Part shown: in pieces, positions 7,896-24,676 of the stretch | How the letters are laid out: each line of letters opens with the position of its first letter | How positions within the stretch are numbered: position 1 is the first letter of the stretch | Assembly (NCBI GenBank): GCA_903887325.1 | Contig: CAISPG010000078.1 | Span: 1-64,000 of the forward strand | Direction of reading: 5' to 3' | Length of the DNA: 64,000 nt | From: an uncultured Burkholderiales bacterium | GTDB taxonomy: Bacteria; Pseudomonadota; Gammaproteobacteria; Burkholderiales; Burkholderiaceae_C | The notes under the pieces: model-generated | Told to the model about the DNA's origin: nothing | What the model saw: the letters and a program-made list of their open reading frames with translations, nothing else | The model's database searches: none | Program-made: the position numbers and the translations under genes

Positions 7896-8681
7896 TTGAC
7901 TATTTCATACCACCACTTGGGTGAAGAAGAACTGGTGTTTCGTCAGGCATTCAGTCACTGCTTACCTCTGCTGATTAAAGGCCCCACCGGTTGCGGCAAA
8001 ACACGTTTTGTGGAATACATGGCGCAGCAATTAAAGCTGCCAATGTGGACAGTGGCCTGCAATGAAGATACCAGCGCAAGCGATCTGGTCGGCAGGTACA
8101 TTCTTAAGGGAAATGAAACACCTTGGATCGACGGGCCTTTGACCCAAGCGGTCAGACAAGGTGGTATTTGTTATCTGGATGAAGTGATAGAAGCCAGGCA
8201 GGAAGCACTGGTTGTTTTGAATTCGCTGGCTGATCATCGCCGTCAGCTCTTTATTGACAAAACTGGCGAAGTGCTTCAAGCCCCGCCTGATTTCATGCTT
8301 GTTGTTTCGTACAACCCCGGATACCAGAGCGTGATGCGTGATTTGAAAGAGTCCATCAAGCAGCGCTTCATCGCCGTACGCTTTGACTATCCTGCAGTCG
8401 AACTGGAGCAGCGCATTATTGCTACCGAATCCGGTTGTCAGCCTGGACTGGCGAGAGCGTTGGCCAACTTCGGGGCAAGCTCACGAAAATTAGCCGGCAC
8501 CGGTTTGTTTGAAGGTGTGTCAACCCGCATGCTGATACACGGCGCTAAATTGATGACGACCGAAAAAGCTCAGCAAAATTTGCTGGAAGCTGCTTTGATA
8601 GATCCGGTCACGGACGAGCCAACCATCCGTGCCACTTTGCTGGCTTTGTTGCCACTGGTCCTGGCCGCTGTTCAGAACTGA
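7896..8681 (+). CDS. NorQ/CbbQ-like MoxR-family AAA+ ATPase
   Basis: Remodelling ATPase of the CbbQ/NorQ group, about 261 residues. The ORF track starts at GTG 7851, but the family begins just before the YxPxGxE-like segment (here ISYHHLGEEE), so TTG 7896 is preferred; it has ACAGG about 11 bases upstream. Walker A is GPTGCGKTRFVEYMA, Walker B ICYLDEV, sensor 1 VVSYNPGYQS and the arginine-finger region LKESIKQRF. Relatives act with a VWA partner to activate Rubisco or mature nitric oxide reductase. Here the partner follows four bases downstream, and the neighbouring enzyme is an amidase, so the client is unknown. P. aeruginosa ami operons also carry an ATPase gene (amiB), to which this may be equivalent. 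Confidence 0.85.
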   Translation: MTISYHHLGEEELVFRQAFSHCLPLLIKGPTGCGKTRFVEYMAQQLKLPMWTVACNEDTSASDLVGRYILKGNETPWIDGPLTQAVRQGGICYLDEVIEARQEALVVLNSLADHRRQLFIDKTGEVLQAPPDFMLVVSYNPGYQSVMRDLKESIKQRFIAVRFDYPAVELEQRIIATESGCQPGLARALANFGASSRKLAGTGLFEGVSTRMLIHGAKLMTTEKAQQNLLEAALIDPVTDEPTIRATLLALLPLVLAAVQN

Positions 8682-8685
8682 GTCA

Positions 8686-10320
8686 ATGCACATGGCAACA
8701 GTGCTTGCAGACAAATGGCTGGAAGCAGTGTTGCGGGGCTTGCAACAACCGGCACAGCAAAAACCGCTGGTTGCACTGGAACGGCACAATAAACAGCAAC
8801 GACTCGCAATTACCCCTTTTGGGTTGTCGTTACCGCGCAGTTTGTCTGAGCAACTGGCCAATGTTTTGCAAGGCGGGTATCAACCTGTAGATTTGTTATG
8901 TATGGCAGCGCATGCCAAGGCCCATTTATTGCACTCCGCTTTTTTTCAGCCGGTGGGTAAATTCAAGCAACTATCGCTGGCCCTGATTTCACTGCTTGAA
9001 GATGAGCGGGTTGAGCGTTTAATTGCTGACGACATAGAGGGCATTGACGCTGTTTTTGCTTCAAGACTGGATATCACGCAGGCGTTGGAAATCGGTGGTG
9101 TAGAAACTCAGCTGGCGAAAATGTCGGTCTGTCTCAACCGCAGAAGCAATGTTTATGACGATTATTGGTGCGGCAAGGCGTTGGCCATGTTTGAGCAGGC
9201 ATTGATCAGCGGCCAAGGCTTTGCTGCCCTGCGTGAAGCCGGCTCCATTCTGGCCAATGATCTCGGGCAAATGCGGTACCGGTTTGACCATACCCGGTAT
9301 GCCGTCTGGCCAGCCTACCGTGATGACAATTCAATTTTGTGGACTGATGCATCTGCTGAACAAAAAATCCGGGAATCTGTTACACACTCCAGCAGCAAAC
9401 CTCCTCCGCTTGAGGAGTTGCCCGTCGTCAAAGAACCTTTTATTTTTTACTATGACGAATGGGATGGTGAAAACTCAGCGATGAAAGAAGCTTTCGTCAC
9501 TGTGAATCACACGGGCTTGACGCCTGGTCATGGGACAAAAGGTATCCCATTGCGGGCAGCGCATGCTACTTCGTTTAAATCTCGCAGAAAACGCGCCATT
9601 CGCGGTGAGTTCAAAGCTGCTACTGACTTCAGTGAACAACTTTGGCTTGATAAGGCCATAGAGCGTAGTGTCGATCTGCGCTGTCTCATATCTCCGGATG
9701 AAAATATCTATCAGCTATGGCAACGCCAGCAACTGAGCACAGGAGTGATGCTCTTGATTGATGCATCTGAATCTGCCAATGACCGGATACCCGGAACCTA
9801 CACCAGTATTTTGGATATTGAGAAAAAATCGATTGCATACCTGGCCGATTTTTTTCAATCCGCACAAATTCCTTTTGCAATTTCAAGCTTTCATTCCAAT
9901 ACCCGTGCTGATGTCAATATATGCCTGCACAAGGATTTTGTATCTGCCTGGTCAACGGCTGAACGCAAGGCTATAAAGGGTTTACAGGCAGGTTTTTCTA
10001 CCAGACTTGGTGCCGCTTTGCGGCACATGGGTACTTTGTGCAGCAAGCGCCTGCAACAACCCATGGTTCTGGTATTGACTGATGGCATTCCCAGTGACGT
10101 TGACGTGGAAAACGATAATTATTTGTTGCTGGATGCTCAATATGCAGTGGCTCAACTCAAGGACGAAGGCGTTGCCATTAATTGTTTGAAAATAGGGTCT
10201 ATGCAAGGCCAGGTCTGTCAACAGATCTTCGGTATCCCGCATACTGTGGTTTGTGAAGCAGACAATATTGAATTGGCTATTCGCAGTGTTTTGAAAAAAA
10301 TTAGAAAGAGCTTTTCATGA
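8686..10320 (+). CDS. NorD/CbbO-like von Willebrand factor A protein
   Basis: Partner of the upstream ATPase, 544 residues from the ATG at 8686; the ORF-track start would overlap the ATPase gene by about 50 bases. The C-terminal third is a VWA domain with the metal-ion-dependent adhesion motif DASES near residue 358 and VLTDGIPSD further on. The N-terminal part is the helical NorD/CbbO region, with FYYDEWDGE in the linker. In studied systems the VWA protein is the adaptor that docks the AAA+ ring to its client. Its stop overlaps the amiC start by four bases, which ties the pair to the amide-sensing genes. Confidence 0.82.
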   Translation: MHMATVLADKWLEAVLRGLQQPAQQKPLVALERHNKQQRLAITPFGLSLPRSLSEQLANVLQGGYQPVDLLCMAAHAKAHLLHSAFFQPVGKFKQLSLALISLLEDERVERLIADDIEGIDAVFASRLDITQALEIGGVETQLAKMSVCLNRRSNVYDDYWCGKALAMFEQALISGQGFAALREAGSILANDLGQMRYRFDHTRYAVWPAYRDDNSILWTDASAEQKIRESVTHSSSKPPPLEELPVVKEPFIFYYDEWDGENSAMKEAFVTVNHTGLTPGHGTKGIPLRAAHATSFKSRRKRAIRGEFKAATDFSEQLWLDKAIERSVDLRCLISPDENIYQLWQRQQLSTGVMLLIDASESANDRIPGTYTSILDIEKKSIAYLADFFQSAQIPFAISSFHSNTRADVNICLHKDFVSAWSTAERKAIKGLQAGFSTRLGAALRHMGTLCSKRLQQPMVLVLTDGIPSDVDVENDNYLLLDAQYAVAQLKDEGVAINCLKIGSMQGQVCQQIFGIPHTVVCEADNIELAIRSVLKKIRKSFS

Positions 10321-11493: not shown

Positions 11494-12171
11494 ATGGAAA
11501 AGCATGATGTTGTCGCCGGATTACGCCAGATGCAGGTGGGTTTATGCCATCCTCTGGATGCCGAGTGCCGTTTGATATCTCAGCAATTGGAACGACTAGG
11601 CATGCCGTTCCGGCAGGTCTGGCCACCTGTCATGAGCGATTTAATGGCTGTTGATCTGGTGGTTCTGTCTCTGGTGCCTGAAGCTTTCATCAAGATAGAC
11701 AAAGCACTGTTCAATGCACTTAAAAATAAAATCGTGGTGTCAGTTCTGAAATTTGAAAGCCCCACCGTGCTGGAACTGGCCTGCCAATTGAATTCTTCTT
11801 CTTTGTTGTTTTCCCCTGTGAAACCTTTTGGTGTGTTGTCAGCTATTGTGCTGGCAGTCAATCAGCATAAAGTTCGCGAAGATTTGCTCAAACGCATCAG
11901 TAAGCTGGAAGGACGAATTGAGTCTGTGCGCTGCATTGAACAGGCCAAACGCTTTTTGATGGATACCAGCGGCATCAGTGATGCTGAGGCTTTCAAGGTC
12001 ATACGCGACCGATCCATGGACAAACGGTGTTCAGTAGAGGAAGTTGCCCAAAGCATCATCACCGCCAAGGATGCACTTGAATCTGCCCTGGGAGACTCTA
12101 GCCCTTTGGCAGGCCAGCACATAGCCGAATCCGTTCAACGCGGCACAGGTACAGTTGTTCGAATTAAATAA
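11494..12171 (+). CDS. amiR: ANTAR-domain antiterminator AmiR
   Basis: RNA-binding transcription antiterminator, 225 residues, preceded by a strong AAGGAGG. The N-terminal half is a pseudo-receiver without the usual phosphoacceptor aspartate cluster (FESPTVLELACQL corresponds to YESPAVLSQIIEL of AmiR). It is followed by a coiled-coil segment (LLKRISKLEGRIESV) and the ANTAR helices (IEQAKRFLMDTSGISDAEAF). It is about 30 residues longer at the C-terminus than Pseudomonas AmiR. The likely target is the leader terminator upstream of urtA1 at 2016-2060, under the control of AmiC. No AmiS-type permease follows. Confidence 0.9.
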   Translation: MEKHDVVAGLRQMQVGLCHPLDAECRLISQQLERLGMPFRQVWPPVMSDLMAVDLVVLSLVPEAFIKIDKALFNALKNKIVVSVLKFESPTVLELACQLNSSSLLFSPVKPFGVLSAIVLAVNQHKVREDLLKRISKLEGRIESVRCIEQAKRFLMDTSGISDAEAFKVIRDRSMDKRCSVEEVAQSIITAKDALESALGDSSPLAGQHIAESVQRGTGTVVRIK

Positions 12172-12231
12172 ACATTCGCAGACCTTCAATGCCCTTGTTT
12201 GGCGCTGAATGCACTGTACTTGGCCTGTTTT

Positions 12232-12248
12232 TGCATTAATTTGGTGCG
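12232..12248. promoter_or_regulatory. NtrC-like site upstream of urtA2
   Basis: TGCATTAATTTGGTGCG matches eight of ten half-site bases of TGCAC-N7-GTGCA and has the AT-rich centre of good NtrC sites. It lies about 65-80 bases upstream of the sigma-54 element. A further half-site, TGCAC, is at 12210-12214. Confidence 0.55.
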
Positions 12249-12310
12249 GAGCCAACCCAATTAAAGGTATTTCTTGGTGATATTTTTGATTACTTGCTGA
12301 TTTAGCTGGT

Positions 12311-12326
12311 TGGCACAAGGCTTGCA
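12311..12326 (+). promoter_or_regulatory. Sigma-54 promoter of the urtABCDE2 operon
   Basis: TGGCACAAGGCTTGCA matches the sigma-54 consensus TGGCAC-N5-TTGCW perfectly, with GG and GC ten bases apart. Transcription would start near 12338, giving a leader of about 55 bases before the ATG at 12393. With the NtrC-like site upstream, this points to nitrogen-limitation control of the urea transporter. Confidence 0.8.
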
Positions 12327-12392
12327 AAGGTAGTTGGCGTAGCCCACAAGGCGCGTTTCTTCTAACCCTTGTATTGTTTTGGAGCACATCGA

Positions 12393-13664
12393 ATGTTTAA
12401 CCGTCGCTTTCATCTGAAAACCCTGGTCGCTGCAGCCGCAGTTGCCAGCGGCTCTTTGTACATGACCGCAGTTCAGGCCGCTGACACCATCAAAGTGGGT
12501 GTGTTGCACAGCCTCTCAGGCACCATGGCTATTTCCGAGACCGTGTTGAAAGACACCGTGCTCATGGCCATCGACGAAATCAACGCCAAAGGCGGCGTGC
12601 TGGGCAAAAAGCTCGAGCCAGTGGTTGTTGACCCGGCCTCCAACTGGCCTTTGTTTGCCGAAAAAACCAAGCAGTTGCTCGGTCAAGACAAAGTTGCGGT
12701 GATCTTCGGTTGCTGGACTTCTGTGTCACGCAAATCAGTGCTGCCCGTGGTGGAAGAAATGAACGGCTTGCTGTTCTATCCCGTGCAATACGAAGGCGAA
12801 GAACTGTCTAAAAACGTGTTTTACACAGGCGCTGCACCTAACCAACAAGCCATTCCTGCTGTCGACTATTTGATGAGCAAAGACGGCGGTTCCGCCAAGC
12901 GTTGGGTGTTGCTGGGTACCGACTATGTCTACCCGCGTACCACCAACAAAATTTTGCGTGCTTACCTGATCAGCAAAGGCGTGAAAGAGTCTGACATCGA
13001 CGAAAAATACACACCCTTCGGTCACTCCGACTATCAGACGATCGTGGCCGATATCAAGAAATTTTCAACCGGCGGCAAAACCGCTGTGGTCTCTACTATC
13101 AATGGTGACTCCAACGTTCCTTTCTACAAAGAACTTGGCAATGCCGGTTTGAAAGCCAAAGACGTTCCGGTCGTGGCCTTCTCTGTGGGTGAAGAAGAAT
13201 TGCGCGGCGTGGACACCAAGCCCCTGGTCGGTCACTTGGCTGCATGGAACTACTTCCAATCCATCAAGAACCCCACCAACGATGCGTTCATCAAAAAATG
13301 GTCTGACTACGCCAAAGCCAAAGGCATTGCCGGTCATAAAGACAAGCCTTTGACCAACGACCCGATGGAAGCCACTTACATCGGTATCAATATGTGGAAG
13401 CAAGCGGTTGAAAAAGCCAAGTCCACTGATGTCGATAAAGTCATTGCTGCCATGGCAGGTCAGACATTCACCGCTCCAAGCGGCATCACTTCCAAAATGG
13501 ACGAGAAAAACCACCACTTGCACAAATCTGTGTTCATCGGTGAAATCAAGGCTGACGGTCAGTTCAACGTGGTTTGGAAAACACCCGGCCCTGTGAAAGC
13601 CAAGCCTTGGAGCCCTTACATTCCTGGCAACGACATCAAGCCTGACGAACCTGTCAAGAAGTAA
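12393..13664 (+). CDS. urtA: Urea ABC transporter substrate-binding protein UrtA
   Basis: Periplasmic urea-binding protein, 423 residues from the ATG at 12393 (GGAG 12 bases upstream); the ORF-track start eight codons earlier has no such site. A Sec signal peptide (MFNRRFHLKTLVAAAAVASG, ending VQAAD) is present. The core has IKVGVLHSLSGTMAISE, IFGCWTSVSRKSVLPVVEE, LLFYPVQYEGEE and TNDPMEATYIGINMWKQAVEKA, all typical of cyanobacterial and proteobacterial UrtA. It heads the canonical urtABCDE operon under the sigma-54 promoter and is followed by a GNRA hairpin. Confidence 0.95.
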   Translation: MFNRRFHLKTLVAAAAVASGSLYMTAVQAADTIKVGVLHSLSGTMAISETVLKDTVLMAIDEINAKGGVLGKKLEPVVVDPASNWPLFAEKTKQLLGQDKVAVIFGCWTSVSRKSVLPVVEEMNGLLFYPVQYEGEELSKNVFYTGAAPNQQAIPAVDYLMSKDGGSAKRWVLLGTDYVYPRTTNKILRAYLISKGVKESDIDEKYTPFGHSDYQTIVADIKKFSTGGKTAVVSTINGDSNVPFYKELGNAGLKAKDVPVVAFSVGEEELRGVDTKPLVGHLAAWNYFQSIKNPTNDAFIKKWSDYAKAKGIAGHKDKPLTNDPMEATYIGINMWKQAVEKAKSTDVDKVIAAMAGQTFTAPSGITSKMDEKNHHLHKSVFIGEIKADGQFNVVWKTPGPVKAKPWSPYIPGNDIKPDEPVKK

Positions 13665-13771: not shown

Positions 13772-15352
13772 ATGAAAGCGATAGCTTTATTTTTAGCAGT
13801 GTGTGTGTCTGTGCTTGGAACGACATCTGCACTGGCACTCACGCCTCAGCAGGTACATGACATAGTGACGGGCGAAACTGACGCCCGAATTGAAAGTCTG
13901 CAAAAGGCATTGGCACAAGCCGATGCGCAGACAGCCGTATTTTTGCAAGCCTTGGCAGATGACGCTGTCGTCATTGCAGGTGAGCAAGTTGTCGTTGTTC
14001 GTGACGGCAAAGGCTTTGATCCGGCAACAGGCAAAGACATGTCCGTGCCTGCAAGCGCAGAAGGCGTGGTCAGCAACAACCGCATGCGCGGCGAAATCGA
14101 TTCAGCCCTGGCTGCATTGCAATTGCTCAGCCCGGGTGATGCGATGCGCACGAAAGCAGCGCAGGCTTTGGTGTCTGAGCCCGATCCGAGTAAAAAACCG
14201 CTGCTTGAAAAAGCCATTACAGCAGAGAAAAATCCTGCCATCAGCCAATTGCTGCTGCTGGCGCAAGCTGCCATTGACATCAGCAGCACAGACGCCGCCG
14301 TGCGCTTGGCCGCTGCCAAGGCTTTAGGCAACAGCAAAACGCCAAACACGCAGTTATTGTTGAATCAACAAATGAAGTTGGAAACCGATGCAGCGGTGAG
14401 AGCGCAAATGAAGGCTTCCTTGGCAGAGATCAAATCCGCATTGGCTTGGGGCGAGCGACTCGGTGCGTTATTCACCGGTTTAAGTCTGGGATCTATTTTG
14501 TTACTGGTCGCGCTCGGCTTGGCCATCACTTACGGTTTGATGGGTGTGATCAACATGGCGCATGGCGAATTGATGATGGTCGGTGCGTATGCCACCTATG
14601 TGGTGCAGGCTTTTTTTCGCAAGCACATGGGCGGTGCTTTCGATTACTACCTGGTCGCCGCTTTGCCTATGGCATTTATCTCGGCTGCTTTGGTCGGCGC
14701 ATTGCTGGAGCGCGCGGTGTTACGCCATTTGTACGGCCGCCCGCTGGAAACATTGCTGGCTACCTGGGGCATCAGTTTGATTTTGATGCAAACCGTGAGA
14801 ACCATTTTCGGGGCTCAAAACGTCGCAGTGGAAAACCCGTCATGGATGAGCGGCGGCATACAGGTGTTGGCAAATCTCAGTTTGCCGTGGAACAGATTAT
14901 TGATTGTGGTATTTGCTTTGCTGGTGCTTGGCGGTGTGGCTTTGTTGATCAGCCAGACACGGTTAGGTTTGTTTGTACGCGGCGTCACGCAAAACCGCGC
15001 CATGGCCTCTTGCATGGGCGTGAACACTGCACGAATAGATACCTATGCATTCGCACTCGGCTCGGGCATTGCCGGTTTGGCTGGTTGTGCGTTGAGTCAA
15101 ATAGGTAACGTAGGTCCCGACTTAGGTCAAGGCTATATCGTCGACGCATTCATGGTGGTGGTGCTTGGCGGGGTCGGTCAACTGGCCGGCACGGTCTATG
15201 CCGCTTTAGGGCTGGGCGTGCTCAACAAATTATTGGAAGGTTGGACCGGGGCAGTGCTGGCGAAGATCGCCGTGCTGGTGTTCATCATCATCTTCATCCA
15301 GAAACGACCGCAAGGCTTGTTCGCGATGAAGGGCCGCAGTGCGGAGGCATGA
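13772..15352 (+). CDS. urtB: Urea ABC transporter permease UrtB
   Basis: LivH-type permease, 526 residues. A signal-like start (MKAIALFLAVCVSVLGTTSA) leads into a periplasmic, alanine-rich helical domain of about 210 residues, which is normal for UrtB of urea systems. The membrane part begins near residue 230 (LFTGLSLGSILLLVALGLAI) and carries YGLMGVINMAHGELMMVGAY and PLETLLATWGISLI. The gene is preceded by a roughly 100-base spacer holding a hairpin. Its stop lies one base before the urtC2 start. Confidence 0.95.
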   Translation: MKAIALFLAVCVSVLGTTSALALTPQQVHDIVTGETDARIESLQKALAQADAQTAVFLQALADDAVVIAGEQVVVVRDGKGFDPATGKDMSVPASAEGVVSNNRMRGEIDSALAALQLLSPGDAMRTKAAQALVSEPDPSKKPLLEKAITAEKNPAISQLLLLAQAAIDISSTDAAVRLAAAKALGNSKTPNTQLLLNQQMKLETDAAVRAQMKASLAEIKSALAWGERLGALFTGLSLGSILLLVALGLAITYGLMGVINMAHGELMMVGAYATYVVQAFFRKHMGGAFDYYLVAALPMAFISAALVGALLERAVLRHLYGRPLETLLATWGISLILMQTVRTIFGAQNVAVENPSWMSGGIQVLANLSLPWNRLLIVVFALLVLGGVALLISQTRLGLFVRGVTQNRAMASCMGVNTARIDTYAFALGSGIAGLAGCALSQIGNVGPDLGQGYIVDAFMVVVLGGVGQLAGTVYAALGLGVLNKLLEGWTGAVLAKIAVLVFIIIFIQKRPQGLFAMKGRSAEA

Positions 15353-15353
15353 C

Positions 15354-16478
15354 ATGAACAAACTTCAACTTCCTCAACCCGTTCGTTTGTTGTCGCCTCT
15401 GGGTTGGACGGTATTCATCGGTCTGCTGCTGTGTGTCAGCCTGTTGGCTCCAGCGCTGAATTTGTGGTTGCCGGTGAGCCATCCTTTGCATATGAGTGAC
15501 TTCGCTGTCTCGCTGGTCGGCAAGATCATGTGTTACGCCATATGCGCGTTAGCCATGGATTTGATCTGGGGCTACACCGGCATCTTGTCTTTGGGCCATG
15601 GTTTGTTTTTTGCACTCGGCGGTTACGCCATGGGCATGTATTTGATGCGTCAGATCGGCACCGACGGCAATTACAAATCCGAACTGCCTGACTTCATGGT
15701 CTTCCTCGATTGGAAAACCTTGCCCTGGCACTGGTACTTCAGCGACAGCTTTGTGGCTACCTTGCTGTTGGTGGTGCTGGCACCTGGATTGCTGGCTTTG
15801 TTGTTCGGCTACTTCGCGTTCCGTTCACGCATCAAAGGGGTGTATTTCTCCATCATCACGCAGGCCATGACTTTTGCTTTCATGCTGCTTTTCTTTCGCA
15901 ATGAAACCGGTTTTGGCGGCAACAACGGCTTCACCGATTTCAAACGAATTCTGGGCACACCGATTGCCACGCCGAACATGCGCATGTTCTTGTTTGTGTT
16001 GACCGGTGTGTGTTTGCTCGGTTGTTATTTGGCAGCTCGTTGGTTGGTGCAAAGCAAATATGGCCGGGTGTTGCAAGCCATACGCGATGCTGAAAGCCGG
16101 GTGATGTTCAGCGGTTACTCACCACTGCCATTCAAACTCAGCATCTGGGTGATTTCCGCAGTGATGTGCGGTGTTGCAGGTGCCTTGTACGTGCCTCAGG
16201 TTGGCATCATCAACCCCAGCGAAATGAGTCCTGCGAATTCGATTGAAATCGCCATCTGGGCAGCGGTCGGCGGACGAGCCAGTTTGATCGGTCCGATTGC
16301 CGGTGCCTTCATGGTCAACGGTGTCAAGAGTTGGTTGACGGTGGTCGCACCCGAGTATTGGTTGTATGTATTGGGCGCCTTGTTTATTGCAGTGACTTTG
16401 TACATGCCTCAAGGTGTCATTGGTTTGTTGGGCAATATCAAACAACGCCTGGCTGCACGCAAAGGGGAGCCGTCATGA
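15354..16478 (+). CDS. urtC: Urea ABC transporter permease UrtC
   Basis: LivM-type permease, 374 residues from the ATG at 15354. The ORF track starts five codons earlier inside urtB2, but the ATG directly after the urtB2 stop fits the operon. The motifs WGYTGILSLGHGLFFALGGYAMGMYLM and AVGGRASLIGPIAGAF are diagnostic. Its stop overlaps the urtD2 start (ATGA). Confidence 0.95.
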   Translation: MNKLQLPQPVRLLSPLGWTVFIGLLLCVSLLAPALNLWLPVSHPLHMSDFAVSLVGKIMCYAICALAMDLIWGYTGILSLGHGLFFALGGYAMGMYLMRQIGTDGNYKSELPDFMVFLDWKTLPWHWYFSDSFVATLLLVVLAPGLLALLFGYFAFRSRIKGVYFSIITQAMTFAFMLLFFRNETGFGGNNGFTDFKRILGTPIATPNMRMFLFVLTGVCLLGCYLAARWLVQSKYGRVLQAIRDAESRVMFSGYSPLPFKLSIWVISAVMCGVAGALYVPQVGIINPSEMSPANSIEIAIWAAVGGRASLIGPIAGAFMVNGVKSWLTVVAPEYWLYVLGALFIAVTLYMPQGVIGLLGNIKQRLAARKGEPS

Positions 16479-17347
16479 CACCTGAACTCATGAGCGAAGG
16501 CGCAGAGCGACTGGAGAAACACAAATTCAGACTAGTGCAGCCTGTGTCGTCCGGTGACCGGGGCGCCAGCTTCTCGCGCATTCACCACCCGGGTGAATTG
16601 GATGTGGCGCATGGACGCATTTTGTATCTGGAAGATGTGAACGTCAGCTTTGACGGCTTCAAAGCGATCAACAACTTGTCGCTGGACATTGGTGTGGGCG
16701 AATTGCGTTGCATCATCGGCCCGAATGGGGCTGGCAAAACGACCATGATGGACATCATCACGGGCAAAACCAAGCCGGATTCGGGCCAGGTGTTTTTCGG
16801 CAGCACCATTGATTTGCTGCGTCACAACGAGCCCGAGATTGCGCAAATGGGCATAGGCCGTAAATTTCAAAAACCCACGGTGTTTGAGCAACTGACTGTA
16901 TTTGAAAATCTGGAACTGGCACTAAAGACTGGCAAAGGTGTGGCCGCTTCCATGCTGTTCAAACTCAACGGCGAACAACAAGACCGTTTGAGCGAAGTGC
17001 TGCACACCATCCATTTGGAAAATCATTTATTGCGCCAGGCGGGCAACTTGAGCCACGGACAAAAACAATGGCTGGAGATCGGCATTTTGTTGATGCAAGA
17101 CCCCAAGCTGTTGCTGCTGGATGAACCGGTCGCTGGCATGACAGATCAGGAAACTGAGCGCACGGCTGAATTGTTTTTGTCGCTCAAAGGCAAACATTCG
17201 CTGATGGTGGTTGAGCACGACATGGCATTCATCCGGCAGATTGCCGATGTGGTGACCGTGTTATGTGACGGCTCTGTGCTGGCGCAGGGATCGTTTGATG
17301 ATGTGCAAGATGACGAACGCGTCATCGATGTTTATTTGGGGCGCTAA
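16475..17347 (+). CDS. urtD: Urea ABC transporter ATPase UrtD
   Basis: LivG-type ATPase, 290 residues from the ATG at 16475. The ORF-track version is extended 48 residues into urtC2 and is rejected. Walker A GPNGAGKTTMMD, signature LSHGQKQWLEIG, Walker B LLLLDEPVAGM and VVEHDMAF are all present. There is an N-terminal extension of about 45 residues before the ABC core begins. Confidence 0.95.
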   Translation: MTPELMSEGAERLEKHKFRLVQPVSSGDRGASFSRIHHPGELDVAHGRILYLEDVNVSFDGFKAINNLSLDIGVGELRCIIGPNGAGKTTMMDIITGKTKPDSGQVFFGSTIDLLRHNEPEIAQMGIGRKFQKPTVFEQLTVFENLELALKTGKGVAASMLFKLNGEQQDRLSEVLHTIHLENHLLRQAGNLSHGQKQWLEIGILLMQDPKLLLLDEPVAGMTDQETERTAELFLSLKGKHSLMVVEHDMAFIRQIADVVTVLCDGSVLAQGSFDDVQDDERVIDVYLGR

Positions 17348-17350
17348 AGC

Positions 17351-18043
17351 ATGCTGGCGATAGAACATATTCACCAATACTACGGCGGCTCGCACATCTT
17401 GCGTGATGTCAGTTTGACTGCAAAAGCAGGACAAGTCACTGTGCTGCTGGGGCGCAACGGCGTGGGTAAAACCACCTTGCTCAAAGCCTTGATGGGTCTG
17501 GTGCCGGTGCGCGAAGGGCACATCAGTTTTGCAGGTCATACGGTCACCAAAGCCACGCCTTACGAGCGAGCCCGCGCAGGTATCGGTTATGTGCCGCAAG
17601 GCCGTGAGATATTCAACCGCCTCACCGTGGAAGACAATTTGCGCATGGGACTGGCGACCCAAGCTGCTTCTGCCGAAATACCTGCTGAGTTGTTTGAACT
17701 GTTTCCTATCTTGGATCAGATGCGCAGCCGTCGCGGCGGCGATTTATCCGGTGGACAGCAACAACAACTCGCCATCGCCCGTGCACTGGCCGGCAAGCCT
17801 AAATTGCTGGTGCTGGACGAACCCACTGAAGGCATACAACCGAGCATCATCAAAGACATAGGACGTGTCATACAACGACTGGCTGCACGCGGTGACATGG
17901 CCATATTGCTGTGTGAACAGTACTACGACTTTGCAGAAGAACTGGCGGATCAATACCTGGTCATGGAGCGTGGCGAGGTGATTGCGCAGGGCCCGGGGTC
18001 AGAGATGAAGAGCAAGGGCATACGCAAACTGGTTTCTATTTGA
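17351..18043 (+). CDS. urtE: Urea ABC transporter ATPase UrtE
   Basis: LivF-type ATPase, 230 residues, last gene of the operon. Walker A GRNGVGKTTLLKALMG, signature LSGGQQQQLAIARAL and Walker [19 protein letters not shown] are canonical, in contrast to the altered P-loop of the first UrtE. It starts three bases after the urtD2 stop. No clear terminator was found after it. Confidence 0.95.
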   Translation: MLAIEHIHQYYGGSHILRDVSLTAKAGQVTVLLGRNGVGKTTLLKALMGLVPVREGHISFAGHTVTKATPYERARAGIGYVPQGREIFNRLTVEDNLRMGLATQAASAEIPAELFELFPILDQMRSRRGGDLSGGQQQQLAIARALAGKPKLLVLDEPTEGIQPSIIKDIGRVIQRLAARGDMAILLCEQYYDFAEELADQYLVMERGEVIAQGPGSEMKSKGIRKLVSI

Positions 18044-19479: not shown

Positions 19480-20316
19480 CTACATGGCCCAGATGCGCGG
19501 CGCCACCGCAGGCAGTTGCCAACAGCGGCTGCGCCATTGCAGCCACACCGAGCGCATCAGCTCCATGGCACTTTCCACTTGGTCTGACAGCACCCGCAGC
19601 ACCACCACACGGGCATCCGGTGAAGACACCCCGGCTTGCAATCTCAGGCGATGCGACTCGCACAATTCCCGCGCCAAGGCAACGACCTGTGCGCGGTAGT
19701 CCTCGCTCATTGCCGTGCCTTGTGCAAACACCAAGGTGGACTGGCAACTGTGCCCGTTCAAACCCAGCGGACTGTGTAACAAGCGGTGATCGGTGGCGGC
19801 GATCAAGCCGCGTTCCAGCCATGTGCCGGTAATTTCCAAGTGCTGCTGAAACTGACCGCTGAGAAACGGTTGATCCGCGTGCGGCAAACCCAGTGCCGTG
19901 ACATCCCATGCCATCAGGCGGCTGCCCGCTTCCAGATGAAACACGGCCTGGTTATGCGCCTGACAGCCGTTGTAGGCCAGTGCTTCCAGCGGCAACCATT
20001 CCAGGCAAGCGCCGTCAGCCACATGTGCATGCACTTGCTGGCGCGCAGTTTTTGCGTCCGAGCCGTAAAAACGGGTGGCGCCGGGCGTGGTGAGCAGCGC
20101 ATGCGCCCCGGCTTGCAAATTGATATCGATCAGCAATTCATCGCCGCCAACCAAGCCGGAAGGCGGGTGCACAAGTATGTTGTGGCAGACCCGGTCACCT
20201 TCGGGGTAAAGGCTTTTCAATATGCGCAGCGGCCCATGGTGTTCATGGCGGGCCACACAACGCTGGTCTTCGACACTGTAGTCAACCTTCAGTCTGGCCT
20301 GCCATCCCATAAGCAC
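19480..20316 (-). CDS. ureD: Urease accessory protein UreD
   Basis: Chaperone that helps UreF and UreG load nickel into apo-urease, 278 residues. The conserved stretches SGLVGGDELLIDINLQAGAHALLTTPGATRFY and LEWLPLEALAYNG mark the UreD/UreH family. In many Burkholderiales ureD is directly upstream of ureA. Here it is on the same strand but about 17.7 kb away, separated by two transporter operons and the amide genes on the opposite strand. It follows the channel gene after 70 bases and may be transcribed with it or from its own promoter; no clear promoter was seen. Confidence 0.93.
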   Translation of the reverse strand: MLMGWQARLKVDYSVEDQRCVARHEHHGPLRILKSLYPEGDRVCHNILVHPPSGLVGGDELLIDINLQAGAHALLTTPGATRFYGSDAKTARQQVHAHVADGACLEWLPLEALAYNGCQAHNQAVFHLEAGSRLMAWDVTALGLPHADQPFLSGQFQQHLEITGTWLERGLIAATDHRLLHSPLGLNGHSCQSTLVFAQGTAMSEDYRAQVVALARELCESHRLRLQAGVSSPDARVVVLRVLSDQVESAMELMRSVWLQWRSRCWQLPAVAPRIWAM

Positions 20317-20386
20317 CTTTATTCAAAGAGCTTGAATCCTACTGCAGTCACCATCAAATCGTAGAAGGAACAAGGTGCAGGATTAT

Positions 20387-22042
20387 TCACACGCTCTTTA
20401 TTCGGTTTGGAATATCTTGCCAAAGTGCCCATTCAGAAGCTGATAAGCGGTCGGTTCTTTGCGCGCTTTTCTCAAATTGCTGGGCATCTGCCATCAGCGC
20501 CAATTGGTAAATTTGATTAACCAAGGATTTGTAATGCTCAACAGCATGGTCCGGTCTTTCCGCAATCAAATTCAACGGCAAAGTCGCATTTTTTAACTCA
20601 TCCTCTTCTTTTTGCTTAACCAGTGCTTCAAGAATTGTGTTGATTTCCTCAATGGTCAAGTGCAATCTCTTGGCTTCTTCCCGGATTTTCAGAATCTCTT
20701 CTTCATCCAGGTTGCCGTCCTTGAGCATGTTCATCAATTCGTTTTTCAAGGCATCACGTTCCTTGATCAATTGATCGCTGAAAGCCGAAGACAGCAAGGC
20801 CGCAGGGATAGCAAAAATACCAATACCCACCAAAGCCAGAACAATGGTCATTGTTCGTCCGACCGGGGTCACAGGGGAGATGTCGCCATACCCCACGGAT
20901 GCCAAGGTGATCACAGCCCAATAAATGGCGGTCGGGATGTTTTCGAATTTATCAGGTTGCGCCTCATGCTCAAACAAATAACCCAGACTGGCAGCCAAGA
21001 CAATCAATAACAACATGATGAACGCGGAGGCACTCATCACAGGCCACTCACGTACCAATACCTTGACCAGAATGCCGGTCGCATCGTTATGTCGTGTCAG
21101 CTTCAATAAACGCGCTAATCGGAATACCCGTAAAAAACGCAAGTCAAAAACGTGTGCCAGAAAGACCTCCAGAAAGAACGGAAGAATTGCCAGCAAGTCA
21201 ATCATGGTCGAAGCCGTGGTCGCTTGTTTGAAGCGACCTGCAACTGCATTTTTAAAACCCGGCTCTTCAACGCAAGAATAAATGCGCATACAGTATTCGA
21301 ATGCAAATATGCCTACAGCAACCGCATCCAGAATCACGAACTCAATGTTCAAAACATAGCTGACGCTTTGCACGGATTCGAGAATAACAGCAAGCACCGA
21401 GATCATCACCCACAAGCCGATGAATGAGTCAAAAATTAACTGCATTGTTCCGCCGTAAGGGCTGTCAAATACCAGGGCGTGGATTCTTTGTCGGAATGTC
21501 CGGCCCTTGTTAAGTTCGACAAATTCCTTGATAGCAGGAATCACAATGCGAAACAATTTCAAAATCCGCAATAACCGCAGGAATCGCAAGGCTCTTAAAT
21601 CGACTGGAATGAACGCCTGAAAAAAGAAAGGCGCAACGGCTAAGAAGTCAATGATTGCGAATGGACTGAAGACATAAGCAAGGCGGGGCAATTTGCGCTT
21701 GTTAAATTCATGGTCTTCAGGCGCAAGATACAGTCGCAATAAGTACTCAATCACAAATACAGCGATTGAAATCAAATCAAAAATATGAAACCAGTGTTTG
21801 TACGGCTCGAAAACAGCAGGTACGTGCTCAAAGACCAGCGTGAATAAATTCGCAACAATCAGCAAACCAATCCATTTGTCCAGTGTTTTCTGGTAGTTGC
21901 CAGGGCACTCAGGATCAAGCAGCCATGCATACAACCATTTGCGTAATGGCAAATCAGATGAGATGTTGGCCTCAGCCTCACTGCCCATCAAGGTTTGGGC
22001 ATCAAGATCCGTGATGCGGTGAACTTTTTTAACTTCTTCCAT
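20387..22042 (-). CDS. Voltage-gated potassium channel-like protein with two voltage-sensor domains and one pore
   Basis: A 551-residue inner-membrane protein from the ATG at 22042 (MEEVKKVHRI); the ORF-track start adds 19 residues overlapping the upstream gene. Residues about 55-170 form a full S1-S4 voltage sensor: S2 Glu99 (FVIEYLLRLY), S3 Asp132 (IIDFLAVAPF) and an S4 with six positive charges every third residue (R150 to R165). Residues about 205-320 repeat it: Glu249, Asp282, and R302 to R317. Then come S5, the selectivity filter SVGYGD (382-387) and S6, and an acidic, probably coiled cytoplasmic tail of about 125 residues. Equivalent sensor residues are 150-152 apart, so this is an internal duplication. 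Known bacterial Kv channels have one sensor per pore. The substrate is inferred from the filter. Confidence 0.88.
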   Translation of the reverse strand: MEEVKKVHRITDLDAQTLMGSEAEANISSDLPLRKWLYAWLLDPECPGNYQKTLDKWIGLLIVANLFTLVFEHVPAVFEPYKHWFHIFDLISIAVFVIEYLLRLYLAPEDHEFNKRKLPRLAYVFSPFAIIDFLAVAPFFFQAFIPVDLRALRFLRLLRILKLFRIVIPAIKEFVELNKGRTFRQRIHALVFDSPYGGTMQLIFDSFIGLWVMISVLAVILESVQSVSYVLNIEFVILDAVAVGIFAFEYCMRIYSCVEEPGFKNAVAGRFKQATTASTMIDLLAILPFFLEVFLAHVFDLRFLRVFRLARLLKLTRHNDATGILVKVLVREWPVMSASAFIMLLLIVLAASLGYLFEHEAQPDKFENIPTAIYWAVITLASVGYGDISPVTPVGRTMTIVLALVGIGIFAIPAALLSSAFSDQLIKERDALKNELMNMLKDGNLDEEEILKIREEAKRLHLTIEEINTILEALVKQKEEDELKNATLPLNLIAERPDHAVEHYKSLVNQIYQLALMADAQQFEKSAQRTDRLSASEWALWQDIPNRIKSV

Positions 22043-22050
22043 GGGTAACC

Positions 22051-22512
22051 TCAGAATTCGAGTTCTGCAATTTTGATCGCGTAAGAGCCTTTGTCGCAAA
22101 CCGAGATGCGCAATTGCAGTTTTTGATCAATCGGGTCTGAATTGATAAGCTGTGAATTAATCACGGGTACCGCAGAACCCGGCGTAGGGATCAATTTTTC
22201 AATCACTATGTTGCCTGGCAAATTGCCGTCTGATGGAATGCATGCAGCAACAAACGCCGGAGCTTCATTGGTGAACGGATTGATCATGTCTTTGAGTTCA
22301 GATTTGGTCATCAAGTACTCAAAACAAGCACCCCAAGTGCCAGGCTTGGCTTCATTAACGTTTGCTAATTTATCGTCTGCATCAACCACAATTTTGTCGG
22401 CTTCAGCAGTTCTAGTTTCATCAGACACAACCACTGTTGAGTCTGTACTTTGCATGGCAGTGATATCTGAATCCGGCGGGATCAGTTCAGCAACCGGGGC
22501 TTTACCACCCAT
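22051..22512 (-). CDS. Unrecognised 153-residue protein, possibly the C-terminal part of an interrupted gene
   Basis: I do not recognise this protein. It begins MGGKAPVAELIPPDSD, has an acidic low-complexity stretch to about residue 50, then a more compact part with two cysteines (WGACFEYL, VAACIPSDG) and the end KIAELEF. It has no membrane segment of its own. It directly abuts the preceding 79-residue ORF in the same reading frame, with only a TGA between them (GAA TGA ATG GGT), so the two may be one 233-residue membrane-anchored protein split by a nonsense codon, or a translationally coupled pair. It ends eight bases before the channel start and is likely in its operon. Confidence 0.6.
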   Translation of the reverse strand: MGGKAPVAELIPPDSDITAMQSTDSTVVVSDETRTAEADKIVVDADDKLANVNEAKPGTWGACFEYLMTKSELKDMINPFTNEAPAFVAACIPSDGNLPGNIVIEKLIPTPGSAVPVINSQLINSDPIDQKLQLRISVCDKGSYAIKIAELEF

Positions 22513-22752
22513 TCATTCGGCCAACGCGTTTTGATGCTTAAAGCGTTGGGCGCTGGTTTTGGTCAACCAAGCCGCCAAGTCCTCACCATGTTTCTTAGTG
22601 ACTTCAGTTTTCATCGCTTCTAGGTAGGCGTCGTGGCCAAGAATCCCGACGGATGAGAGCACAGAAAGAACGATGAGTATGAAAATCCAATCCATTAAAG
22701 TTGGACTGGTTTTGACTTTGCTGTGAGTTGATGTGGGGTGAGTAGATGCCAT
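22513..22752 (-). CDS. Unrecognised 79-residue single-pass membrane protein
   Basis: After 17 polar residues it has one hydrophobic segment (MDWIFILIVLSVLSSVGIL) followed by a charged helix (HDAYLEAMKTEVTKKHGEDL). The start KTSPTLMDW resembles the first residues of type IV pilins (an acidic residue at position 5 of the hydrophobic start), but the glycine needed for prepilin cleavage is missing. It is the first gene of the small operon leading to the channel and is separated from the next ORF only by its own stop codon. Confidence 0.6.
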   Translation of the reverse strand: MASTHPTSTHSKVKTSPTLMDWIFILIVLSVLSSVGILGHDAYLEAMKTEVTKKHGEDLAAWLTKTSAQRFKHQNALAE

Positions 22753-22903
22753 AAGAGTCGATCAGAGCAAAAAGAGAGTGGGCAGCCTGCCGGCTTTTTA
22801 ATTCGCGGTGGAATGATATTCGGAAAAAATAAGAAAATTATTAAATTCAAAAGAAAATGATATTTTCAAATTTTGATTTTGCGTAGCTCAAAAATTAAGG
22901 TGA

Positions 22904-24676
22904 TTAAATTGAAAATTCATCCATAAGTAACGAAAAAGCCTGAATTGCAAGTTGTATATCGTCCGCCGTGGTGCATTCCAACGGATTGTGGCTGATGCCT
23001 TTGTTTTCGCCGCGCACAAATAACATGGCCTGCGGCATCAGGTCGTGTAATTTCATGGCATCGTGCTCGGCACCGCTTGGCATGCGGTGTACCGGTAGCC
23101 CCAGCGCCTGGACCACTGCTTCCCCGCGTTGTTGTAAACCAGTGTCGCTGGGGGCGGCGGCGGCTCTGACGGTTTCTTCTAGCCGGAACTGCAAGCCACG
23201 TTTTTCACAAACCGCAGTCAGTTGTTTCAATATGTCATGCGCCATGGCGTCGCGTTGCGCGTCAGTGGGCGCGCGCATGTCCAGGCTGAAATGACAATTA
23301 CCCGGCACCACATTGATGGAGCCTTGCGGCACATTGAGCATGCCCACGGTGGCGACCGAGTCGCCATCGGCCCGGGCGCGCTCTTCCACATACACCGCCC
23401 ATTCAGCAAAGCCGGCCACTGCGTCCTGGCGCCGGTTCATGGGACTGGTGCCTGCGTGACTGGCCGTACCACTGATCTCAATGAGGTAGCGCAAGCTGCC
23501 GTTGATAGAAGTCACAACACTTAGTGGGAGGTTAAGGCTTTGCAGCACCGGGCCTTGTTCGATATGCACTTCAACAAAGCCCAGGTAGTTCGAGGGGTCG
23601 CGCTGTAAAGCGGGTATGTCTGCCGGATTCAGACCCGCCTGTTGCATGGCCTGGCGCATGCTGACGCCATCTGCATCGATTTGATCCAGCCATTCTTGAC
23701 GAAAGCTACCGGTCAGCGCGCTGGAGGCCAGGAAAGTGGCTTTGTAGCGCTGGCCTTCCTCTTCGGCAAAAGCAACCACTTCCAGGCCAACATTCAGCCG
23801 TTTGCCCTCGCGCACGAGTTCGCGCACACAGGCCATAGGCACAAAAATACCCAAGCGTCCATCGTATTTGCCGCCATTGCGTACCGTGTCGTAGTGGCTG
23901 CCGGTCAACACATAACGCGCACCCGGGCGCGCCGGGTGGTAACGCCCGACCACATTGCCTACCGCGTCAATGAATACTTCATCAAAGCCGCAGGCGCGCA
24001 TACCAAGCACCAGCGTTTGCGCACTGGCCTGATGGGCGTGCGTGAGATAGCTGACACTCAACTCGTCTTTTTCGGCAAATCCCGGGTCACTGAACTGAGC
24101 CAGCCATTTGTGCCAGTCCCAGACTTCTGCGCCGGTGACGGGGTGGGTATGGGATTTATCGTTCAGGCGGTTTTCCGCTATCCGGTGAATCTGGCGCAAA
24201 CACTCTGCAAATTCGACTGAGGTGGACGCATGCAAACGGCGGCTGACTTCATTTAGCATCGTCTGCGGCGTCAGGCCCTGTCCGCGCGGGCCGCGCACGT
24301 CGATGACGAAAGGCCAGTCGAAGCGTGCCAAGTAAGCGTTGTTCAATGCTTTTAATTGCGAGGCTTGTGTTGGCGTGGCTTGCCACAGCCCGGTTTGAGC
24401 TTCTGGCGTCAGGCCGGTTGCAGGCTCGACCATCAGCAGCGGGTGGGCTTTGATCAAGGCCAGTTGCTGTTCGTGACCAGCCTGTGCCACGCTGTCGGCC
24501 AGTGCCCATTTCAGATGCGCCAGGCTGCGAAACGGACGATGCGCTAACGCTGCCTGTGCCACCCAAGTGCTTTGCCCGTACAAACTGGCCAGCCATTGCA
24601 AGGCGCTTTTGTCATCGGCGCGGTTCAGCCATTCCAGCGTGAAACCGGATCGGGCGTTTGTGTGTGGCAATGTCAT
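22904..24676 (-). CDS. Bifunctional OHCU decarboxylase / allantoate amidohydrolase
   Basis: A 590-residue fusion for purine breakdown. Residues 1 to about 170 are a UraD-type 2-oxo-4-hydroxy-4-carboxy-5-ureidoimidazoline decarboxylase (KAHPLL with the catalytic histidine). The rest is an M20 amidohydrolase of the AllC group that converts allantoate to ureidoglycine, CO2 and ammonia. Its metal ligands are visible in GSHYDTV, GGKYDGRLG, FAEEEGQR, EVHIEQGP and ISHNPLE. The fusion brings together two non-consecutive steps; allantoinase acts between them. It is the second gene after a TonB-like lipoprotein (13-base gap). An AT-rich 150-base spacer follows it. Confidence 0.9.
   Translation of the reverse strand: MTLPHTNARSGFTLEWLNRADDKSALQWLASLYGQSTWVAQAALAHRPFRSLAHLKWALADSVAQAGHEQQLALIKAHPLLMVEPATGLTPEAQTGLWQATPTQASQLKALNNAYLARFDWPFVIDVRGPRGQGLTPQTMLNEVSRRLHASTSVEFAECLRQIHRIAENRLNDKSHTHPVTGAEVWDWHKWLAQFSDPGFAEKDELSVSYLTHAHQASAQTLVLGMRACGFDEVFIDAVGNVVGRYHPARPGARYVLTGSHYDTVRNGGKYDGRLGIFVPMACVRELVREGKRLNVGLEVVAFAEEEGQRYKATFLASSALTGSFRQEWLDQIDADGVSMRQAMQQAGLNPADIPALQRDPSNYLGFVEVHIEQGPVLQSLNLPLSVVTSINGSLRYLIEISGTASHAGTSPMNRRQDAVAGFAEWAVYVEERARADGDSVATVGMLNVPQGSINVVPGNCHFSLDMRAPTDAQRDAMAHDILKQLTAVCEKRGLQFRLEETVRAAAAPSDTGLQQRGEAVVQALGLPVHRMPSGAEHDAMKLHDLMPQAMLFVRGENKGISHNPLECTTADDIQLAIQAFSLLMDEFSI

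Follow-up and report, generated by a model that had tools for sequence, protein, structure and literature searches.

A bacterial Kv-type potassium channel with two tandem voltage sensors and a single pore

Introduction

The window, the whole stretch of 64,000 nucleotides analysed here, belongs to a 2.47 Mb Burkholderiales assembly and contains a gene for a 551-residue potassium channel subunit in which two complete voltage sensors stand in front of one pore. To our knowledge, almost all voltage-gated channels have one sensor per pore module. The tandem channel is a new architecture within the known voltage-gated potassium (Kv) channel superfamily and not a new superfamily. It probably forms a tetrameric, K+-selective, voltage-gated channel in which the second sensor drives the pore and the first tunes its gating. 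A natural sensor-sensor-pore subunit raises the question of whether a single pore can be under the control of two sensors arranged in series, and the tandem channel is a bacterial, expressible protein with which two-sensor gating can be tested.

Results

Domain layout and predicted structure

The channel gene (20387-22042, minus strand) begins with an ATG at 22042 and its stop codon ends at 20387. The initial annotation had read a sensor-sensor-pore layout from the sequence, and this is borne out by Pfam, which returns two Ion_trans matches (window 21545-21883, E 3.8e-15, and 20771-21436, E 1.6e-31) and a single match to the pore profile Ion_trans_2 (residues 343-421, E 3e-17). The same layout is seen in an AlphaFold2 model (mean pLDDT 78), for which 43 homologues taken from independent contigs served as input, and which has ten transmembrane helices and a pore helix, followed by a C-terminal domain built of helices. 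Voltage sensor 1 (residues 51-177; 21512-21892, minus strand, as are all features below) is folded in the model as four helices (51-72, 82-109, 127-144 and 149-177), including the stretch from 55 to 170 for which a four-helix sensor had been predicted; it carries E99, D132 and an S4 with R150, R153, R156, R159, K162 and R165. The conserved PA..EF..N end of this S4 is followed by an inter-sensor linker (residues 178-197; 21452-21511) that, according to alignments and a modelled helix at 183-191, holds a GRTFRQ pre-S1 helix. Voltage sensor 2 (residues 198-319; 21086-21451; helices 198-222, 225-259, 277-295 and 301-316) has E249, D282 and R302, R305, R308, R311, K314 and R317, so that the charged residues first listed for both sensors were all recovered.

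The pore part (residues 320-432; 20747-21085) comprises an S4-S5 linker (320-331), S5 (333-358), a pore helix (369-381) and S6, the last helix extending from 393 to 442; it is delimited by Ion_trans_2, the model and matches to solved Kv4 and KCNQ channels. As initially annotated, it contains a single K+ filter, SVGYGD. The cytoplasmic C-terminal domain (residues 433-551; 20390-20746), with modelled helices to residue 550, is the least conserved part of the protein beside the N-terminus. The marks of the Kv superfamily, that is, basic residues at every third position of S4, a Glu in S2 and an Asp in S3, are present twice, and the GYG filter lies within S5-P-S6 as expected. Since each subunit has two sensors for one pore, and not one sensor per pore-forming subunit, the channel is a variant and not an ordinary Kv member.

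Distribution and origin

The named genomes closest to the window's are metagenome assemblies of Comamonadaceae, Limnohabitans and Rhodoferax, several apparently from lakes. Of 60 genomes sampled from the window's own genus (Limnohabitans-like Comamonadaceae), at least 47 have a full-length tandem channel with 60-81% identity, and many also have a second paralogue with 44-54% identity. The genes of the channel family are accordingly divided into two paralogue classes, class A, which includes the window gene, and class B, the second paralogue. An origin of the layout by chance or assembly fusion is ruled out by scores of other genomes, single-contig ones included.

Outside this genus the tandem channel is rare. 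Sampling covered one phylum. Among 301 genomes of the same taxonomic family, G727 has a complete copy, the copy in G642 is split between frames, and G739 has a single-sensor relative. A sample of 399 genomes of the phylum yielded one further tandem channel (G1110); the genus of G1110, a second one in the order, has it in 17-18 of 121 genomes. The tandem channel is present in none of 249 genomes of family f255, which is perhaps Rhodobacter-like. No place among plasmids and phages covers 80% of the channel query, and the only true tandem among the plasmid and phage places examined is on a plasmid of Gemmobacter aquarius (L154 4842-6317; 491 aa, annotated as 'ion transporter'; 29% identity). This protein keeps E99, D132, R153, R156 and R159 together with the linker residues P169, F174 and N178, and because its alignment to the window protein spans both sensors and the linker, the sensor-sensor-pore layout is probably one old invention. 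Both of its S4 segments are thinned to fewer charges, only three being left in sensor 1; the equivalents of R153, R156 and R159 remain in sensor 1 and the inner charges in sensor 2, which looks like a charge ladder shared out between the sensors.

In phylogenetic trees the first sensors of both classes fall into a single clade (support 97-99), and the second sensors group with single-sensor channels of 400 aa (support 98-99). These groupings rule out a recent internal duplication of the sensor and indicate that one tandem ancestor predates the A/B split. For the source of sensor 1, duplication versus fusion with the sensor of another channel, the AU test gave p 0.55 on 124 columns. At two loci (L036 611-3828 and L160 2571-5803), two class B channel genes lie in direct tandem without partner genes.

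Constraint on the two sensors

In sensor 1, the Phe of S2 and E99, D132, R156, R159, K162 and R165 show no change where aligned across 43 class A and B homologues, while R150 is replaced by His in two proteins and R153 by Lys in two; none of the six S4 charges varies in sensor 2. Synonymous difference per site (pS) is similar across the channel parts, about 0.7, and pN per site is 0.074 in sensor 1, 0.088 in sensor 2, 0.038 in the pore and 0.209 in the C-terminal domain. Hence sensor 1, with a pN near that of sensor 2 and far below that of the C-terminal domain, is not decaying. The two S4 segments themselves have 0.034 (S4-1) and 0.030 (S4-2) non-synonymous differences per site. Judged by sequence, sensor 1 is constrained like sensor 2 and is not a useless passenger; conservation of its charges is a mark of selection, not of movement.

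A partner gene upstream of class A channels

A gene predicted, from homologues upstream of class A genes and the model of one homologue, to encode one transmembrane helix and an extracytoplasmic domain (22051-22752) lies 8 nt upstream of the channel gene in the window. Of 87 class A genes, 86 have such a partner directly upstream, most often overlapping or at a spacing of 12 nt. In other genera, too, the partner comes before the tandem gene (L155, L156, L173-L182), but it is upstream of none of eight class B genes. The partner proteins measure about 180-260 aa and have a single transmembrane helix; they share four invariant cysteines and a small domain of four strands (pLDDT 86 in the homologue model), and have no Pfam or PDB relative by sequence or fold. 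The long first helix and four strands prompted a comparison with type IV pilins, which was abandoned as there was no PDB fold match. The partner is probably a disulfide-bonded accessory subunit. At a single-sensor relative (L158) the start of the channel gene is overlapped by a gene with weak likeness to the partner, so the partner is tied to this channel lineage and not to sensor 1 as such.

In the window the partner gene runs from an ATG at 22752 to an in-frame TGA at 22515-22513, which sits at the first invariant Cys of the relatives, and an ATG immediately after it opens a second ORF (22512-22051); relatives have intact copies. The gene may be split or the TGA may be a sequence (assembly) error, and the complex may be incomplete in the window's genome. 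Selenocysteine at the TGA was rejected, the genome having no SelB match above the cut-off. The sole class A gene without a partner (L122 5567-7806) is preceded by genes for a truncated KdpD-like kinase and a KdpE-like regulator, both below curated cut-offs; regulators of K+ uptake in this position fit with K+ biology.

Channel clusters

Downstream of most class A genes in the window's genus come two single-sensor channels, their filters SGYGN and SGWGN, and some loci extend further, to a DUF4337 protein, a NaChBac-type sodium channel (BacNav; filter TLESW) and class B. The full cluster of relatives occupies one strand and runs from the partner through class A, the SGYGN and SGWGN channels, the DUF4337 protein and BacNav to class B. 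Against NavMs the BacNav scores 243 bits, and the start of class B overlaps the BacNav stop (L034 10861-11673 with 11673-13262; also L059, L073, L075 and L098), so the two are apparently a Na+/K+ channel pair in one transcription unit. BacNav is missing from many loci. In the window's genome Pfam gives only three Ion_trans matches and no BacNav; besides the tandem channel it has a single ordinary Kv fragment, on a different contig, and nothing else. The single-sensor, Kv-like pair behind the tandem channel (L034 (G050:C1) 8102-9010 and 9021-9974; most of L044-L123) has TSGYGN and SGWGN in place of TVGYGD.

Discussion

Comparison with known channels

Residues 182-434 match solved Kv4, KCNQ and Kv2 channels in sequence and fold, with E-values of 1e-24 to 1e-31 against Kv4.2 and KCNQ4. 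What the tandem channel shares with Kv4, KCNQ, Kv2 and Shaker, and with bacterial 6TM Kv channels, is sensor 2, the S4-S5 linker and the SVGYGD pore (residues about 182-434); it differs from them in adding a whole second sensor in front. Its C-terminal helical domain matches no Pfam family, and no T1 domain was found. Like the multi-module chains of the superfamily, the tandem channel has more than one module in one polypeptide, but those chains either have the entire 6TM unit in repeat, in the order sensor-pore-sensor-pore, or gain a second pore, as in TOK, whereas the extra sensor here is poreless. Eukaryotic tandem Kv channels, for instance, are 6TM-6TM (PMC7576140). With one pore domain in each chain, the protein falls outside both the two-pore channels (TPC) and the two-repeat tandem Kv channels. 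It scores 59.9 bits against the NCBIfam model for hyperpolarization-activated K+ channels (NF040645), for which the curated cut-off is 300.

The initial annotation had called the layout unusual and had asked whether a characterised class already shares it. No such class was found: solved structures, Pfam, NCBIfam and the open-access literature yielded no sensor-sensor-pore channel, none of the PDB matches listed spans both sensors, and among 369 genomes sampled across families of the bacterial class the tandem channel was present in the window's own genome only.

Subunits of the KCNE or Nav beta type resemble the partner protein in topology. The likeness extends to one helix, a small extracytoplasmic beta domain, conserved cysteines and a gene beside the channel, but to topology only, as the partner has no sequence or fold match.

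Proposed mechanism and alternatives

We propose that a second functional voltage sensor is fused ahead of an ordinary six-helix Kv subunit, which would assemble as a K+-selective tetramer; with one pore per tetramer, eight sensors would follow. Sensor 2 leads into the pore by way of a canonical linker and should therefore be the one that opens and closes it. Sensor 1 would lie outside sensor 2, connected through about 20-30 residues, and would move with voltage. It ends in a long S4 helix and a short linker, which has both the conserved PA..EF..N motif and the helix that precedes S1 of sensor 2, an arrangement that would let its movement act on sensor 2 or the cytoplasmic layer and so tune the voltage range, steepness or inactivation of the same pore. 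Class A channels may work in contact with the one-helix, probably disulfide-bonded accessory protein encoded upstream, and their K+ flux would probably serve to set the membrane potential or to repolarise it. We are doubtful of the wider proposal of a new channel class from common freshwater bacteria, with eight sensors per pore, two voltage thresholds from sensors in series, a dedicated accessory subunit and a multi-channel cluster for electrical signalling (BacNav and channels with odd filters).

Sensor 1 could instead be locked, or act in assembly. That it folds like a sensor but stays still, aiding assembly or membrane placement or binding the partner or neighbouring channels, is the next most likely reading, to which we give limited credence. 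A peripheral position would suit such docking, the partner protein travels with class A genes, and in Gemmobacter the S4 of sensor 1 is down to three charges; yet a docking bundle needs neither five or six S4 charges nor the F-x-x-E and S3 Asp that are kept in all, or nearly all, of the 43 homologues, and the partner is absent beside class B channels, though those have a sensor 1, and is weakly matched beside the single-sensor channel L158. The initial annotation had also suggested that the extra sensor could form a proton path of its own. A voltage sensor of suitable construction can itself conduct, Hv1 being an example, and like Hv1 and other sensor-only proteins sensor 1 is an S1-S4 module without a pore directly after it. 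An Hv1-like domain carrying its own proton or cation current in tandem with the K+ channel is nevertheless very improbable. Hv1 channels need an acidic residue (Asp) inside S1 and typically have three S4 charges; the S1 interior of sensor 1 (56-71) is without acidic residues in all 43 homologues, its S4 has six charges, and it is fused to a K+ channel with a pore. Moreover, the listed PDB matches of sensor 1 alone are sensors of bacterial Nav, KCNQ and Kv4 channels, not Hv1.

A further reading overlaps with the tuning of gating by sensor 1 that we prefer, and concerns the role of the channel and not its parts. BacNav, tandem Kv and single-sensor channels would together make membrane potential spikes as a bacterial excitability module, the second sensor giving the Kv channel a delayed or second threshold. 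This is suggested by the one-strand cluster of relatives, in which class B starts inside the stop of a BacNav that matches NavMs, but we consider it unlikely, BacNav being missing from many loci and from the window's genome. Where genomes carry the whole set, the BacNav and unusual-filter neighbours make the role of bacterial voltage-gated channels testable.

Genomic surroundings

Genes for urt and a ureD-like protein flank many loci of the window's genus. A functional tie to urea metabolism was considered and set aside, there being none among the neighbours of two loci from other genera inspected by eye; the urea neighbours therefore probably reflect conserved gene order. In the window (13772-18043 and 19480-24676) the channel sits between urtB-E, with a ureD-like gene recognised by inspection, and a purine breakdown fusion gene composed of OHCU decarboxylase and allantoate amidohydrolase.
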